Assembly (NCBI RefSeq): GCF_010093205.1
Contig: NZ_PDWN01000001.1
Coordinates: 248,001 to 312,000, forward strand
Direction of reading: 5' to 3'
DNA from: Pseudoxanthomonas daejeonensis
Lineage (GTDB): Bacteria > Pseudomonadota > Gammaproteobacteria > Xanthomonadales > Xanthomonadaceae
Length of the DNA stretch: 64,000 nt
Part shown: in pieces, positions 1 to 10,554 of the stretch
How the letters are laid out: each line of letters opens with the position of its first letter
Position numbering within the stretch: the stretch's first letter is position 1
The notes under the pieces: model-generated
Database searches by the model: none
What the model saw: only the letters and a program-made list of their open reading frames with translations
Told to the model about the DNA's origin: nothing
Made by a program: the position numbers and the translations under genes

Positions 1-428
1 CGCGAGTCGGACTCGGGGGCCTGGCCCACGGCCTGGGTCTGCGCGTCGGACGCAGGGGGTTGTTGCGTCGGCTGGGCCGCCTGCGCTTGCCCGGTTTCCT
101 GCGGCGCGTAGGCGACCCCCTGGGCCAACGATGGCACCAGGACCGGAACGGCCGCGCCGCGCGCGCGCGCGTTGGCCAGTATTTCCTCGTTCAATGCAGC
201 CTGCAGCTGCGCCATTCCCCGGGTCTGTTCGCCCAGCTCGTCGCGCAGCTCCTCTATCCGCCGGGACTGCTGGTTGATCCGGCTCTGCAGCGCATCCAGC
301 CGGGCCTCGGGCGTAGCTCCACCCGCGGTGTCACCCGAAGACGCTTCCTGCGCACCAACCTGTCCACAGACGACCAGGCCGATGGCCAGGGCCAGCGGCG
401 CGGCGGCATTGGGCGACATCCGTTTCAT
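1..428 (-). CDS. FapF-like outer-membrane exporter, N-terminal part (cut by window start)
   Basis: The frame is open from an ATG at 428 to the window edge, giving 142 visible residues and no stop. An AAGGAG ribosome-binding site lies 7 nt before the ATG. A signal peptide (about residues 1-26, ending GQVGAQ) is followed by a predicted coiled coil at about 42-85 (heptad-like LDALQSRINQQ then RRIEELRDELGEQ) and then a Gln/Ala/Pro-rich linker. The barrel that should follow is outside the window. In the Pseudomonas Fap system FapF has a signal peptide, an N-terminal coiled coil and a C-terminal beta-barrel that exports the amyloid subunits. The position here, last after FapD- and FapE-like genes, is the same. 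Seen: signal peptide and coiled coil. Inferred: FapF role. A generic porin or TolC-like protein remains possible. Confidence 0.6.
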   Translation of the reverse strand, partial: MKRMSPNAAAPLALAIGLVVCGQVGAQEASSGDTAGGATPEARLDALQSRINQQSRRIEELRDELGEQTRGMAQLQAALNEEILANARARGAAVPVLVPSLAQGVAYAPQETGQAQAAQPTQQPPASDAQTQAVGQAPESDS

Positions 429-472
429 GGCGCTCTCCTTGGGGCGGGAGCCGGGTGGCGTGGGCATCGGTA

Positions 473-982
473 TCAGGGCGGGCCTGGAACGCGCGCCAAT
501 GCATCGCCAAGCGCACCATAGGAGTTGATGCCCTGGAAGACACCCAATGCACCGGTGCCCACTTCGACATGGGTGACCGTGCGGATACGCTGGCTGTCGA
601 GCGTGTTCTGTATCACCACGCCACCGGCAACACCTGCGGGATCGAAGTGGTTGCCTTCGCCCACCTGGACCACGATGCCCTTGTTGAAATCGGCCAGGGC
701 CTGCGCCTGTCCGGCATCAAGGTCCACCACATCCGGAATCCGCACCGAGACGCTGGCGACCAGCACGTCGTTGACATAGACGACGCGCTCGATCCCGAAC
801 GAGAGCATCTGCCCGGACGGCAGCTGGAAACCGCCGCGCATCTCCGCCAGGCGCGCCGGATCGATCGGCTTCCACGCCCCGCCCAACGGCGTGGACCGGC
901 CATCCCATGCCTGCGCCTGCGCGGACACCGCGGCGCATGCAACAAGCAGCAACGCGGGAAACGATCGACGGACGACGTTCAT
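473..982 (-). CDS. FapE-like exported protein with internal double-glycine motif
   Basis: 169 residues. The start at 982 gives a signal peptide (MNVVRRSFPALLLVACAAVS, cleavage near AQA-QA). At residues 44-51 is RLAEMRGG, which matches the double-glycine leader pattern (Leu at -7, Met at -4, Gly-Gly at -2/-1), followed by a hydrophobic beta-rich segment (FGIERVVYVNDVLVASVSV). A later block, GGVVIQNTLDSQRIRTVT, resembles the VIQN motif of the upstream small protein. The gene lies 4 nt after the C39 peptidase and 44 nt before the FapF-like gene. In Fap operons FapE is a minor extracellular component. Its role here as minor subunit or nucleator is inferred. Unlike Pseudomonas FapC/FapE, no C-terminal Cys-x-x-Cys is present. 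Confidence 0.6.
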   Translation of the reverse strand: MNVVRRSFPALLLVACAAVSAQAQAWDGRSTPLGGAWKPIDPARLAEMRGGFQLPSGQMLSFGIERVVYVNDVLVASVSVRIPDVVDLDAGQAQALADFNKGIVVQVGEGNHFDPAGVAGGVVIQNTLDSQRIRTVTHVEVGTGALGVFQGINSYGALGDALARVPGPP

Positions 983-986
983 GGCT

Positions 987-1685
987 TCAGATGTCCGTGG
1001 GGCCGCGCCTGGGCGCGGTGATGTTGCGCAATCCATCGCGCTGGATGCCCATGTCGAGCGGCGCCGGGGGCGCCGTGCGCCAGTCGTCGGGATTGTTGAA
1101 GCCGGCCTGCTCCCGCCGGTTGTGCACGACGAACAGCACCCGGTTGTCCCATAGCGCTTCGAAGCGAGAACGCGGCATCGCGCGCGTGCCCCGCGCGGGA
1201 TCGCCCAGCAGCACGCGTCCATTGCGCATGCCCTTGACCACCACGAAATGCCGGTACCCGCGATCGTTCAGGAGCACGATCGCCGGAACACCCTCTTCTT
1301 CGAGCTTTTCCAGCGGCAGCTCGAAGCCATCCGCCTCGAAGCCCTTCGTAGCCAGGTATCGGCGCATGTCCAGCAGCGAGAACCCTTCCTTCCGGATCCT
1401 GGCCTGGTCGCCGTTGTCGTACATCTGCACGAAGACGTCCGCTTCGCTGACCGGATGGCCGTACTGGTAGGTCAACAGCGTCGCCGTGGCCGCGGAGCCG
1501 CAACTGAAGTCGTACTGCTGGGGGACCGTGGTACGGAAGCGCGCCTCCTTCAGGCTGACGACGCGCATGCCGTAGGTGCCGCCACCCTGCGGTACGCGGA
1601 TGTCGGTACTGGCGGCCCACGCGCCATGCGCGCACGCGAATGCGCACGCCAGCGCGCCCCACCCCGCCAGGCGCCGATTGCTCAT
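987..1685 (-). CDS. Periplasmic C39-family cysteine peptidase (FapD-like)
   Basis: 232 residues with a signal peptide (cleavage near AWA-AS, residue 25), so it is periplasmic and not fused to an ABC transporter as bacteriocin C39 peptidases are. The catalytic set is complete: oxyanion Gln56 and Cys62 in QQYDFSCGSAA, His146 in RGYRHFVVVKG, and Asp162 in LLGDPARG. The start codon overlaps the stop of the upstream gene (ATGA, 1682-1685), so the two are translationally coupled. C39 peptidases cut after Gly-Gly, and two neighbouring proteins carry RLAxMRGG. In Fap systems FapD is this kind of enzyme and is needed for export. The C-terminal 40 residues are polar and poorly conserved looking. Family assignment is firm; the substrate assignment is inference. 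Confidence 0.8.
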   Translation of the reverse strand: MSNRRLAGWGALACAFACAHGAWAASTDIRVPQGGGTYGMRVVSLKEARFRTTVPQQYDFSCGSAATATLLTYQYGHPVSEADVFVQMYDNGDQARIRKEGFSLLDMRRYLATKGFEADGFELPLEKLEEEGVPAIVLLNDRGYRHFVVVKGMRNGRVLLGDPARGTRAMPRSRFEALWDNRVLFVVHNRREQAGFNNPDDWRTAPPAPLDMGIQRDGLRNITAPRRGPTDI

Positions 1686-2161
1686 TGGCCTGGGTTGGCG
1701 AAGATGACCTGGATGCTCATCCCGTTCTGGATCAGCACGTTGCTGCCGCTGTTCTGGATGACCGTGTTGAGGCCGCTGGCGTTGGAGAAGGCTTCGCCGT
1801 TGATGGAATTGGAACCACTGACGACGTGGTCGGCCGTGTTGTCGTGGACGCTACCATCCACGGAAGTGTTGCTTTCATTCGTCTCTTCGCCACCGCGCAT
1901 GGCGGCCAACCGTTCGATATCGACTGCCTCGCTGCCGGCGAAGCCGGGAACGGATGCTGCAGGGAGAAGCGCCTGCCTAGCGTCCGGCGTTGAGGTCGCC
2001 GTACCCGGCTGCGCTTGAGGGGTTGCCGGATCGATCAGTGGCGCGAGATTCGCGGCAGCTGGATCGTCAGCGGCGAATGCGGGGCCGGAACCGGAAGCCA
2101 GCGCCGCCATCGCGATGCAAAGTGAAAGCGGACCTAGTGAAAGTGGACGGTGCGGATGCAT
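1682..2161 (-). CDS. Small exported amyloid-like protein with double-glycine site
   Basis: 159 residues from the ATG at 2161, chosen because AAGGAG lies 8 nt upstream; an in-frame GTG at 2170 is less likely. A signal peptide (cleavage near AFA-AD, residue 30) precedes a Pro/Ala-rich spacer, then DIERLAAMRGG (Gly-Gly at 90-91). The 68 residues after it are rich in Asn, Ser, Gln and Val (NTVIQNSGSNVLIQNGMSIQ) with no Cys. That tail resembles amyloid-forming repeats such as curlin (Q-x-x-G-x-N-x-x-x-Q) and aligns with the end of the glycine-rich protein encoded next door. The likely role is a FapB-like nucleator or minor fibril subunit that is matured by the C39 peptidase. No close family was recognised by name. 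Confidence 0.65.
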   Translation of the reverse strand: MHPHRPLSLGPLSLCIAMAALASGSGPAFAADDPAAANLAPLIDPATPQAQPGTATSTPDARQALLPAASVPGFAGSEAVDIERLAAMRGGEETNESNTSVDGSVHDNTADHVVSGSNSINGEAFSNASGLNTVIQNSGSNVLIQNGMSIQVIFANPGQ

Positions 2162-2303
2162 GGGACACACTCCTTCCCGAACGCTCCTGCCTGCATGGGC
2201 ACGGCGCCCCGTCGGGATGACGGGACGCCTTGTGCTCGTGCGATGGATGCATCGGGGTTTCCAGGCCCCGATGCACGTGGGAGCGCCTAAGGGCTTATGG
2301 CCA

Positions 2304-3701
2304 CTACGGGCCTACGGTCAGGTTGGCCTGCACGGTGATGCCCTGCTGGATCAGCGACGCAAAGCCGCTGTTCTGGGCCGTCACCATGATGCCCGCCGCC
2401 GACTGCCCAACACTGGTCATCTGGTTGGACATGTCGAAGGTGCCCGCGTTGTTGGCCACAGATCCACCTGCGCCAGCCGCACCGCCTGCACCGCCGGCGC
2501 CGTTGCCACCGGTGTTGGTGCCACCGGTGCCTGCGCCGCCCGTACCCGCTGCGGCCGTGCCGGAACCACCCGCTCCACCACTGCCGCCCGCGCCGCCTGC
2601 TCCGCCCTCGGCGCCGTTGCCGGCCGTTGCGTCGCCATTGCTCGCGGTGGAAGTGGCGCTGCCATTGGTGGCATCGCCATTGGTTGCGGCACCGCCATCA
2701 CCGCCCGTTCCTGCGGTAGCGGTCAGGCTGCCGCCGGCACCGCCCGTGCCCGTGCCGGAACCACCGGTGCCCGTGCCATCGCCTGCGGTCGCCGTGCCAG
2801 CACCACCGGTGCCGGTGCCGTCGCCTGCAGTGCCCGCACCACCGGTCGCGGTGCTCGCACCGCCGGTCGCGCTTGCACCACCGGACGTGCCGTTGCCGGC
2901 GGTGGCGGTACCGCTTCCACTCGTCGCATCGCCCGCCCCACGTTCGCGTACACGACCGCTGTTGGCGTCGGCATTGCCGCCGCTTGCGCCGCTGTCCTGC
3001 GCGCCCGTCGGACCACTGCCCGAAGCGCCGGATCCGCCCAGGGCCGCACTGGCGGCCAGACCATCGCCACCGCCCGCCCAGCCACTTCCGCCAGTGCCAT
3101 TGCCACTGGCGCCACTACCCGTGCCATCGGCACCGTTGGCGCCACGATTGCGAGTGGCGTTGCCGCCATCGCCGCCATTACCCGCGTTGGCGTCCGCGAC
3201 GCTCGCGTCGCCAACCCCCGTCGGGCCGGCCTGGACGTCGCCATTGTTCGCGGTACCGCCACTGCCACCGCTGCCCGCAGTGCCACCACGGCCACCACGG
3301 TCGCCGGCACCTCCGGTGCCGTTGCCACCGTCCCCATCACCACCCCTGCCATCACCACCCAGGGCCAGGCCGCCGTAACCGGCGCCACCTTTCCCACCGT
3401 TGCCACCGTTGGCGTTGCCGTTGTTGTTGGCGACGTTGCCGATGCCATACACGCTCAATCCAGAAACGCTTCCTTCAAGTCGCGTAGTGGCCACAGCGGA
3501 GCTGTGGTTGAAGGAATTCGAGAACGTGGCGGTGGCAGTGCCGCCATTGCTGGCGGCCGCCGTGCCTTGGCCATCTGCATATGCGCTGTAGTCGTTGACC
3601 GTTGTTGGAGTTTCTTCAGGAGTTTCCTGAGCGAAGGCCTGCCCCGACAGGCCCAGTCCGAGCATCACTGCGGATGCCATAAGTGTCTTGCTGATATGCA
3701 T
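2304..3701 (-). CDS. Large glycine-rich secreted protein, putative fibril or adhesin subunit
   Basis: 465 residues with an AGGAG site just before the ATG. A Sec signal peptide (cleavage near AFA-QE, residue 25) is followed by a Ser/Ala/Thr-rich section to about residue 90. Residues 95-415 are almost only Gly, Ala, Thr, Ser, Asn and Asp, built from short units such as GGAGTATAGDGTGTGG (tandem near 290-320). The C-terminal 50 residues are a separate module containing AQNSGFASLIQQGITVQ. There is no Cys and one Trp. It is first in the operon and has no RLAxMRGG motif. By position it corresponds to the main fibril subunit FapC, but the repeats differ from known FapC repeats and look more like a PGRS or glycine-rich surface protein. 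The function is inferred. Confidence 0.6.
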   Translation of the reverse strand: MHISKTLMASAVMLGLGLSGQAFAQETPEETPTTVNDYSAYADGQGTAAASNGGTATATFSNSFNHSSAVATTRLEGSVSGLSVYGIGNVANNNGNANGGNGGKGGAGYGGLALGGDGRGGDGDGGNGTGGAGDRGGRGGTAGSGGSGGTANNGDVQAGPTGVGDASVADANAGNGGDGGNATRNRGANGADGTGSGASGNGTGGSGWAGGGDGLAASAALGGSGASGSGPTGAQDSGASGGNADANSGRVRERGAGDATSGSGTATAGNGTSGGASATGGASTATGGAGTAGDGTGTGGAGTATAGDGTGTGGSGTGTGGAGGSLTATAGTGGDGGAATNGDATNGSATSTASNGDATAGNGAEGGAGGAGGSGGAGGSGTAAAGTGGAGTGGTNTGGNGAGGAGGAAGAGGSVANNAGTFDMSNQMTSVGQSAAGIMVTAQNSGFASLIQQGITVQANLTVGP

Positions 3702-4213: not shown

Positions 4214-5224
4214 TCAGGCCGGGGGCACCGGCCCGGTCGACTGACGCAGCTGCAGCGAGTACGGCATGCGTACCATGCGCCCGGCACTGCGGTCGCGGAT
4301 CGCATTGAGCAGCTGAACGGTCGCGACCTGGCCCATGTCGCGGGTGGGCTGCTGCACGGTGGTCAGCGCCGGAAAGATCTGCTGCGAGATCGGCGTGTTG
4401 TCGAAGCCGCACACCGACACGTCGCGCGGCACGCGCAGGCCCAGTTCACTGGCCGCACGCATCACGCCGGCAGCCATGTCGTCGTTGGCGGCGAAGATCG
4501 CCGTGGGGCGTTCGGCAAGGGCCAGCAACTGGCGGCCGGCCGCCAGGCCGGAGTCGAACGAGAACTCGCCGTCGACCACCAGCGCCGGGTCGTAGCGCAG
4601 GCCGGCGCGGCGCAGCGCGCTGCGGTAGCCCGCCATGCGCCATTCGCTGGCGCCATGGTCCGGATGTCCGCGCACGTGGCCGATGCGGCGGTGGCCCAGC
4701 TCGATCAGGTGCGCCATCAGCTCGCACACCGCCTCGTGCTCGTCCAGGGTCACGCCGATGCGTCCTTCACGGCCCTTGGGCGAGATGCACGAGAACGGGA
4801 TGCCGCGCTGGTCGAGGCGATCAAGCAGCGCGTCGCTGTCGGTCAGCGGCGGGGTGAGGATCAGTCCGTCCAGGCGCGAGGACACGACCAGCGAATCGAT
4901 CGCATCGAGGAAATCCGGGCTGTGGTAGCTCACCGGCTGCATCACCATCCCGTAGTGGTGGCTCTCGCAGGCCTCGACCACGCCGGTCAGGATCTCCATC
5001 AGGTAGTTCGGCGACGGGTTGTCGTACAGCAGCGCGACCAGGTAGCTGCGGTTGCCGGCGAGGCTGCGCGCGGAGGGATCGGGGCGATAGTTCATCGCCG
5101 CCACCGTTTCCATGACCTTCGCCCGCGTGGCCTCGCGCACGCCCGGCTCGTTGTTGAGCACGCGCGACACCGTCTTCATGGACACGCCCGCCCGCTGCGC
5201 GACATCCTCGATCCTGACCCGCAT
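4214..5224 (-). CDS. LacI-family transcriptional regulator of a beta-glucoside cluster
   Basis: 336 residues starting at MRVRIEDVAQRAG. The ATG at 5224 has GGAGG 5 nt upstream and places the helix-turn-helix at residues 3-25, as usual in the family; an earlier in-frame start would add 14 odd residues. The DNA-binding part includes VSMKTVSRVLNNEPGV. The rest is a periplasmic-binding-protein-like sugar sensor containing FAANDDMAAGVM and VSVCGFDNTPIS. It ends a minus-strand cluster with a sodium/sugar symporter (38 bp upstream) and a GH3 glucosidase, so the ligand is probably a glucose-containing disaccharide or glucose. A LacI-type palindrome at 9638-9651 upstream of the GH3 gene is its most likely operator. 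Family is certain; ligand is inferred. Confidence 0.88.
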   Translation of the reverse strand: MRVRIEDVAQRAGVSMKTVSRVLNNEPGVREATRAKVMETVAAMNYRPDPSARSLAGNRSYLVALLYDNPSPNYLMEILTGVVEACESHHYGMVMQPVSYHSPDFLDAIDSLVVSSRLDGLILTPPLTDSDALLDRLDQRGIPFSCISPKGREGRIGVTLDEHEAVCELMAHLIELGHRRIGHVRGHPDHGASEWRMAGYRSALRRAGLRYDPALVVDGEFSFDSGLAAGRQLLALAERPTAIFAANDDMAAGVMRAASELGLRVPRDVSVCGFDNTPISQQIFPALTTVQQPTRDMGQVATVQLLNAIRDRSAGRMVRMPYSLQLRQSTGPVPPA

Positions 5225-10035: not shown

Positions 10036-10554
10036 GTGCGTAATTACGATCTGGAATTCCTGAAGCGCTTCTCGATGGTGATCGGCCTCCTGGCCCTGGT
10101 CACCCTGGGCCTGATCCTGCTGGCCATTTATCTGCATGGCCGGTTGCCCCCGGAAGTCTCGCCGACGGCCGCCAGCCGGACCGCTGCGCGCATTCATCCG
10201 GCCGGCGCGGTCTACGCCGGCGATACCGGTGCCGCCGCCCAGGCCGCCGCCGCCGCCGCCGCGGTCGCCAAGGCCTCCTCGCAGGTCGCCTACGGCGGGA
10301 CCACCGATGGCGCGGTGATCTACCAGAACCTGTGCGGCGCCTGCCACACCAGCGGCGTGGGCAACGCGCCGACCCTGGATCACGCGCACTGGGATGCGCG
10401 CCTCGCCCAGGGCGCCGACACCCTGCACAAGCACGCGATCGAGGGCTTCACCGGCCCCAGCGGCGGGATCATGCCACCCAAGGGCGGCAACCCGGCGCTG
10501 ACCGACGAGCAGGTGAAGGCGACGGTCGACTGGATGCTCGCCAACCTGAAGTAA
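10036..10554 (+). CDS. Membrane-anchored c-type cytochrome (cytochrome c5-like)
   Basis: 172 residues from a GTG at 10036, chosen because it gives (V/M)RNYDLEFLKRF followed directly by a membrane anchor (about 14-34); upstream frame residues look non-coding and a TATAAT sits between. An Ala-rich linker (about 65-85) leads to a class I cytochrome domain with heme motif CGACH (100-104) and the likely axial Met146 in GGIMPPKGG. It faces the periplasm and carries electrons, probably within the respiratory chain. It is a single gene ended by a strong hairpin at 10571. The family is clear; the partner oxidase or reductase cannot be told from this window. Confidence 0.85.
   Translation: MRNYDLEFLKRFSMVIGLLALVTLGLILLAIYLHGRLPPEVSPTAASRTAARIHPAGAVYAGDTGAAAQAAAAAAAVAKASSQVAYGGTTDGAVIYQNLCGACHTSGVGNAPTLDHAHWDARLAQGADTLHKHAIEGFTGPSGGIMPPKGGNPALTDEQVKATVDWMLANLK

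Follow-up and report, generated by a model that had tools for sequence, protein, structure and literature searches.

Five minus-strand genes lie at positions 1–3701 of the window, by which we mean the whole 64,000-nucleotide stretch of Pseudoxanthomonas daejeonensis DNA analysed here (C11:248001–312000 of its genome), in the order glycine-rich protein, small exported protein, C39 peptidase, FapE-like protein and FapF-like pore (Table 1). The open reading frame (ORF) coordinates agree with the order and common strand given in the original prediction, which had taken these genes for a Fap-like amyloid export operon with double-glycine motifs in two of the non-enzyme proteins. The small-protein and peptidase genes overlap through an ATGA, and gaps of 142, 4 and 44 bases follow the glycine-rich, peptidase and FapE-like genes respectively, an arrangement consistent with a single operon. 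The FapF-like gene is complete on the same contig (L003:12428–11046), where it encodes a protein of 460 residues ending in Phe. Signal peptides of the operon proteins were assigned by eye.

Table 1. Genes and motifs of the operon, in window coordinates
Feature	Positions	Strand	Description
Gly-rich exported protein gene	3701–2304	-	465 aa with 32% Gly; probably the major subunit exported
Small exported protein gene, FapB-like by position	2161–1682	-	159 aa; weak FapB match, E 3.7e-4
RLAAMRGG motif, small-protein residues 84–91	1889–1912	-	predicted FapD site after Gly91
FapD-type C39 cysteine peptidase gene	1685–987	-	232 aa; Cys62, His146, Asp162; predicted periplasmic
FapE-like gene	982–473	-	169 aa: signal peptide, spacer, leader motif, predicted beta domain, VIQN element, C-terminal helix
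RLAEMRGG motif, FapE-like residues 44–51	830–853	-	predicted FapD site after Gly51
FapF-like pore gene, 5′ part, 142 codons	428→1	-	signal peptide, coiled coil, linker; barrel beyond window edge
LANARAR element, end of coiled coil, residues 84–90	159–179	-	Leu79 at -12, Leu84 at -7, Arg88 at -3, Ala89 at -2; possible third FapD site

A complete canonical fapABCDEF operon is found on the same contig some 85–90 kb away (L027, C11:332001–346000, at 10153–4172 on the minus strand), in which each of FapA to FapF is matched by its own NCBIfam model (FapF 5.9e-112, FapD 5.6e-78), all under the curated cut-offs. The window operon is thus a second and diverged system alongside the canonical one. Its gene order had been called the same as that of Pseudomonas, which is fapABCDEF (PMC5557850); it is similar but not identical, since the glycine-rich gene stands ahead of the small one and there is no FapA gene, nor does the NCBIfam FapA model match any of the five proteins.

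The peptidase and its relatives

The window peptidase matches Pfam C39 (E 1.3e-21) and NCBIfam FapD (E 4.6e-40), the latter with 137 bits against a curated equivalog cut-off of 330, and the FapD of the canonical operon, at 261 bits, is likewise under that cut-off. The active-site residues originally named, Cys62, His146 and Asp162, are all present, and the Cys/His/Asp triad is intact in 81/81 peptidases (80 relatives and the window enzyme). Taken together, the two family matches and the conserved triad support a C39 peptidase of the FapD type.

Scanning genome contigs gave 115 peptidase relatives, and the clade counts reported here rest on the 80 of them that were analysed plus the window. The relatives come from Pseudoxanthomonas, Lysobacter, Luteimonas, Luteibacter, Rhodanobacter, Ralstonia, Cupriavidus, Polaromonas, Variovorax and other genera. 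A FapE-like gene lies downstream of the peptidase in 80/80 loci and a small gene upstream in 78/80, no small FapB-like gene being found in L139 and L146; as iterated hidden Markov models (HMMs) returned FapE-like and FapB-like proteins together, these were told apart by their position up- or downstream of FapD. An upstream ORF with a glycine-rich-type C-terminus, picked by C-terminal similarity, is present in 71/78 loci (17–36% Gly, median 28%), and a FapF-like gene in 72/80. Of 60 genomes searched, counting that of the window, 18 gave a FapD-type match of some kind; six have the window type at an identity of at least 74%, in one case in two frames. The same five-gene order, with an RGG in the FapE-like protein, is also found on two alphaproteobacterial plasmids, where the genes around a 'C39 family peptidase' are annotated as hypothetical and one as a 'transporter'. 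Two individual loci may be mentioned in passing: at L032 (G014:C1:3466685–3467379), in a same-genus genome of 57% completeness, the FapD-like gene is broken across two reading frames, and the L133 contig, labelled Akkermansia muciniphila (a metagenome-assembled genome), falls among Burkholderiales rows, on a long branch, and may be misbinned.

The putative pilus system Fil of Acinetobacter resembles the window operon in pairing a C39 peptidase with a FapF-like outer-membrane protein (NCBIfam FilB 1.7e-35, FilC 4.2e-11), but the scores are far under the curated cut-offs (FilB 122.7 of 475 bits, FilC 42.8 of 630 bits), and the other proteins of the operon have no Fil match in NCBIfam.

Double-glycine motifs and a related element in the pore

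We number the motifs so that the last Gly is -1. The positions first reported for them, DIERLAAMRGG at residues 81–91 of the 159-residue small protein and RLAEMRGG at residues 44–51 of the 169-residue FapE-like protein, are exact, and both motifs prove to be conserved across the clade. In the FapE-like proteins (n=81), L-7, R-3, G-2 and G-1 are each present in all 81, with W-15 in 71, V/I/L-12 in 74 and M/L/I/V-4 in 74; in the small proteins (n=79), L-7, G-2 and G-1 are present in all 79, R-3 in 72 and V/L/I-12 in 73. Thinned alignments tell the same story, the motif supplying 4 of the 8 invariant columns among 45 FapE-like rows and 3 of the 12 among 43 small-protein rows.

A single occurrence of the motif proves little, because the loose pattern L..[MLIV].GG is common in shuffled sequences (11,509/200,000 or 5.8% for the FapE-like protein, 2,059/200,000 or 1.0% for the small protein). 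The strict pattern, with hydrophobic residues at -12 and -4, L-7 and RGG, is reached in 168/200,000 and 6/200,000 shuffles respectively, statistics that ignore the relatedness of the sequences. Chance is nevertheless a poor explanation of motifs conserved in 81/81 and 79/79 proteins. Homologues without the GG, which had been put forward as evidence that would count against the motif, number 0/81 and 0/79 within the clade but do exist outside it.

The two motif-bearing proteins differ in how they relate to the Fap families. The small protein consists of a variable N-terminus, the leader motif and a conserved part of 68 residues that includes VIQNSGxNVLIQN; of 43 small proteins tested against NCBIfam FapB, only the window copy matches, and weakly. 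The window FapE-like protein matches no curated family and 0/45 of its homologues match NCBIfam FapE at E 0.01, but its profile does match that of canonical FapE along a stretch of 36 columns that includes the motif (probability 84, E 7.7e-6), and the relation to FapE implied by the original label was found in the motif region only. Canonical FapE carries the same element with R or K at -1 (read in 29 loci, 26 distinct strings) and with R-3 and G-2 invariant in 16/16; that of L027 reads MRGR where the window protein reads MRGG. A canonical FapE query found nothing on plasmids, and the FapE-like proteins at five plasmid loci have RGG in four cases and VGR in the fifth, L153. Canonical FapA (L027:9650–10153; L038:9402–9941) also has an element resembling the leader helix (TDEDFATMSSG and SDDEIAGMSSG), which suggests that FapA could be one more protein recognised by FapD.

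In the AlphaFold2 models of both proteins a short helix directly precedes the GG, at residues 82–88 of the small protein (pLDDT ~76) and 42–48 of the FapE-like protein (pLDDT ~54). In the latter, residues 50–53 form the sole segment of at least three residues with pLDDT below 50, and a confident beta domain begins at about residue 60, for which no fold match was found in the PDB at E ≤ 0.001 (best 1.1). An LVAC in the FapE-like signal peptide (window 982–900) looks like a lipobox, but its absence from homologues including L029 and L030 makes a signal peptide of the ordinary kind likelier. Further along, residues 120–142 of the FapE-like protein and 131–153 of the small protein have a VIQN element in common (hhalign probability 95), faintly similar to the glycine-rich C-terminus (probability 18), and this is possibly a common assembly element of these proteins.

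The register of the motif, hydrophobic at -12, -7 and mostly -4 ahead of GG, equals that of a solved complex of a C39 domain with a leader (Val-4, Leu-7 and Leu-12; PMC6363468), C39 substrates carrying GG, GA or GS at -2 and -1. The window enzyme thus shares with the C39 domains of the ABC transporters ComA, LahT and PCAT1 the Cys/His/Asp residues, the -12/-7/-4 register and the expected cut after Gly-Gly, but it is stand-alone and exported, has no ABC transporter domain, and its substrates would arrive by Sec. The motif differs too, in lying behind a variable N-terminal spacer, in its fixed Arg-3 and in not favouring Glu at -8, a feature of the ComA consensus (L-12 xxx E-8 L-7) that the operon motifs do not share.

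The pore protein has a third, related element. Its residues 139–459 align with the solved FapF structures 5o65, 5o67 and 5o68 (best E 3e-27), and NCBIfam FapF matches at 3.8e-44 with 151 bits against a cut-off of 700; the coiled coil was judged from sequence together with weak coiled-coil matches. These matches support a pore with a FapF-type coiled coil and a barrel, and the alignment goes against another refuting outcome named at the start, a FapF-like gene without a barrel. At the end of the coiled coil, 61/73 FapF-like proteins have a hydrophobic -12, L-7, R-3 and [GA]-2, a combination reached in 3% of shuffles, which again take no account of relatedness; the -12 residue is hydrophobic in 61/74 instances against a background of 18%, and where a protein has several instances the one tallied is that nearest to the barrel having a hydrophobic -12. 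Rouse et al. had pointed to GG or GA just ahead of the FapF barrel and to a possible FapD cut there (PMC5557850). Canonical FapF linkers have Gly-Lys/Arg past the coiled coil in most relatives of the family or order, with L040–L042 as exceptions, and we build no claim on this. Since the -1 residue varies in outer small proteins, in the L153 FapE-like protein and in the FapF linkers, it is not always small, and the deeper core shared by these elements appears to be roughly L-7, R-3 and [GA]-2.

The glycine-rich protein and the comparison with Fap

The glycine-rich protein, which carries the C-terminal element QNSGxxSLIQQxxxVQANL, has no double-glycine leader: L...RGG is found in 0/71 and the short core in 5/71. 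Its relation to FapC was examined in three ways. None of 16 glycine-rich proteins matches the FapC HMM at E 0.01, the glycine-rich profile has no meaningful match to canonical FapB or FapC (probability 9), and the Fap repeat GX4NX3GX6N (PMC3792158) is found 0 times in the glycine-rich, small and FapE-like proteins of the window, whereas 3 copies are counted in each of the canonical proteins FapB and FapC encoded by this genome, a number reached in 0/2000 shuffles. A FapC homologue thus has no HMM, profile or repeat support, and the amyloid label of the original prediction is not supported by the sequence. The same prediction had set the subunits apart from FapC for want of repeats and of a Cys-x-x-Cys; the first difference stands, but the second is uninformative because the canonical FapC of this genome also lacks Cys-x-x-Cys. 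Its description of the operon as a branch distinct from known Fap is upheld. Glycine spacing within the glycine-rich region is in modest excess at 3 (0.207; shuffles 0.163 on average, standard deviation 0.014) and at 5 (0.209), and as the excess is modest we claim neither a regular glycine period nor a polyglycine helix.

The window operon therefore resembles the Fap system of Pseudomonas in its exported C39 peptidase (FapD), its coiled-coil and barrel protein (FapF), its minor subunit and its single-operon arrangement, and it shares the L/M-xx-M-R-G element of FapE, as read in canonical operons other than those of Pseudomonas itself. It differs in the absence of FapA and of Fap repeats, in having a glycine-rich major protein, in the replacement of Arg/Lys by Gly at FapE -1, and in carrying the leader motif in the minor subunit also. 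That the operon is an ordinary if diverged Fap amyloid operon whose glycine-rich protein is FapC is very improbable, for, notwithstanding the peptidase, the pore, the relation to FapE and the similar gene order, it has the negative HMM, profile and repeat results above and the lack of FapA against it, in a genome that already holds a canonical operon.

Proposed processing by the peptidase and its alternatives

In a tree of FapD, a single change (branch support 92/85) separates all 54 rows with Gly at FapE -1 from all 28 with Arg or Lys, and the FapE -1 residue thus co-segregates with the FapD clade. The tree was built from 84 of the 124 non-redundant rows, after every other named locus had been removed; its output carries a long-branch warning, the -1 state was read with a pattern favouring RG[GRK], and the rows of L063 and L068 gave no FapE above the script cut-off, L063 having an RGG protein at E 1.5e-4. 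Ser64/Ala, Glu117/Arg and Asp119/Arg (window numbering) are among the columns that divide the Gly-type from the Arg/Lys-type FapD clades, and residues 64, 117 and 119 are possible specificity positions, from which, as 29 columns differ between the clades, we draw no conclusion about specificity.

From the gene order, the FapD and FapF homologies, the intact triad, the near-invariant motifs in their C39 register and the co-segregation of FapE -1, we propose that the operon encodes a Fap-type (FapD and FapF) outer-membrane export system that would handle a glycine-rich polymer instead of the Fap-repeat protein FapC, and that its peptidase cuts the small and FapE-like proteins after GG, and perhaps the pore too, licensing export of that polymer; we put the probability of this at about two in three. 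All five proteins would reach the periplasm by Sec. There the peptidase would bind the short leader-like helix of the small and FapE-like proteins, hydrophobic at -12, -7 and usually -4, and cutting after Gly-Gly would release a small subunit of 68 residues and a FapE-like domain of 118 residues. Where the FapF coiled coil ends, the related site may likewise be cut or bound, so as to free the plug of the barrel. Processing would then license passage of the glycine-rich protein, itself uncleaved, for which the small subunit may serve as a starter or cap. We infer cleavage and the order in which it occurs, what the small subunit does, glycine-rich export and fibre formation. In Pseudomonas, FapD and its active-site Cys38 are needed for secretion of FapC, and the first ~70 residues of FapE yielded no peptides (PMC5557850).

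Several observations weigh against this proposal. Arg-3 is outside the C39 leader consensus, and Glu is absent from the seven commonest residues at -8, where R, T and K lead in the FapE-like protein and R, A and T in the small one. The -4 residue of the small protein is M, L, V or I in just 53/79 and Tyr in 17. In the structural models, the FapE-like helix before the GG is of low confidence and the small protein is poorly modelled overall (pLDDT 58). L...R[GA] is found within FapD itself in 50/80 (L...RGG in 1/80), so the short core alone is unspecific. The co-segregation of FapE -1 with FapD amounts to one single split, and the distant FapE-like protein of L153 (Indioceanicola profundi plasmid, 4628–5086) has its VGR while lying outside the canonical Fap clade. 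In more distant systems of the GG type, the small protein has RGR, RGM, RGQ, RAK or RAM, with GG in 1/9 (motifs read by eye; the hits L056, L065 and L066 are outside that count), and in the alphaproteobacterial plasmids L151 and L152 it has AGK or AGR, so that GG in the small protein is a property of the clade. As for the pore, the -2/-1 residues of the linker are AR in 26, GA in 15, GG in 11, GR in 4, AK in 2 and three singles (n=61); 10/73 FapF-like proteins, nine from Polaromonas/Variovorax and one from Rubrivivax, lack even L...R[GA], and the element is in 0/9 of the Comamonadaceae linkers looked at.

This restricted occurrence of GG in the small protein bears on a narrower possibility, which we regard as rather unlikely, namely that FapD cuts the FapE-like protein only, and perhaps the FapF linker, as proposed in Pseudomonas, the GG of the small protein being kept for another reason. 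It agrees with the limitation of the FapB-like GG mainly to the window clade, with the GG in each FapE-like protein that was found among the GG-type branches of the tree (54 rows, a further two having yielded no FapE), and with the peptides found throughout FapA–D of Pseudomonas, which indicate no processing of FapB or FapC (PMC5557850). It leaves unaccounted for the invariance of GG and L-7 in 79/79 small proteins, notwithstanding a variable surrounding N-terminal region.

Variation at -1 could also mean that the element is not cut at all. In that case L-7, R-3 and G-2 would form a docking or sorting signal, either for FapD acting as a tether or chaperone or for FapF, and the second Gly would be specific to the clade. 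The -1 residue is R or K in canonical FapE, R, K, M or Q in outer FapB-like proteins and R in many FapF proteins, while L-7, R-3 and [GA]-2 mostly persist, and some C39-like domains are non-catalytic (PMC5557850, PMC6363468). However, the triad is intact in all 81 peptidases, both Gly residues are fixed in two different proteins across the clade, and the Cys38Ala mutant of Pseudomonas FapD blocks secretion (PMC5557850), and we consider an uncut signal unlikely.

A bolder extension of the processing model, which we hold to be doubtful, is that one leader-like code (hydrophobic -12, L-7, R-3 and G/A-2) runs through the minor subunit, the FapE-like protein and the pore linker, so that a single periplasmic peptidase would both mature cargo and open the pore, and that the cargo is an extracellular glycine-rich polymer that is new and not of the Fap kind. 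If true, this would define a class of secretion licensed by a periplasmic protease, of which Fap amyloid is just one sub-branch.

Parts of this picture have precedents. FapD and FapF were earlier suspected of belonging to larger families (PMC3792158), fapD–fapF pairs are known in other phyla (PMC6173800), and processing by FapD of FapE and of the periplasmic part of FapF is a published idea (PMC5557850, PMC12822426). In 2017–2018 the FapD substrate was described as unclear or undetermined (PMC5557850, PMC6173800), and a 2025 review goes no further than to have FapD 'thought to' process FapE and FapF (PMC12822426). We recognised no description of the glycine-rich branch in the open-access PMC literature, most subscription papers being outside that search; as far as our searches show, what is new is a widespread glycine-rich branch in which two components have invariant leaders of the C39 type and the pore has an element akin to them.

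C39 leaders of canonical appearance, reported to be missing from the Pseudomonas proteins, are present in two components of the window branch, and a third has a similar element. With the residues exactly defined, the question of what FapD acts on becomes a question of peptide cleavage, and the operon suggests that Fap amyloid is not the sole export of FapD/FapF machines.

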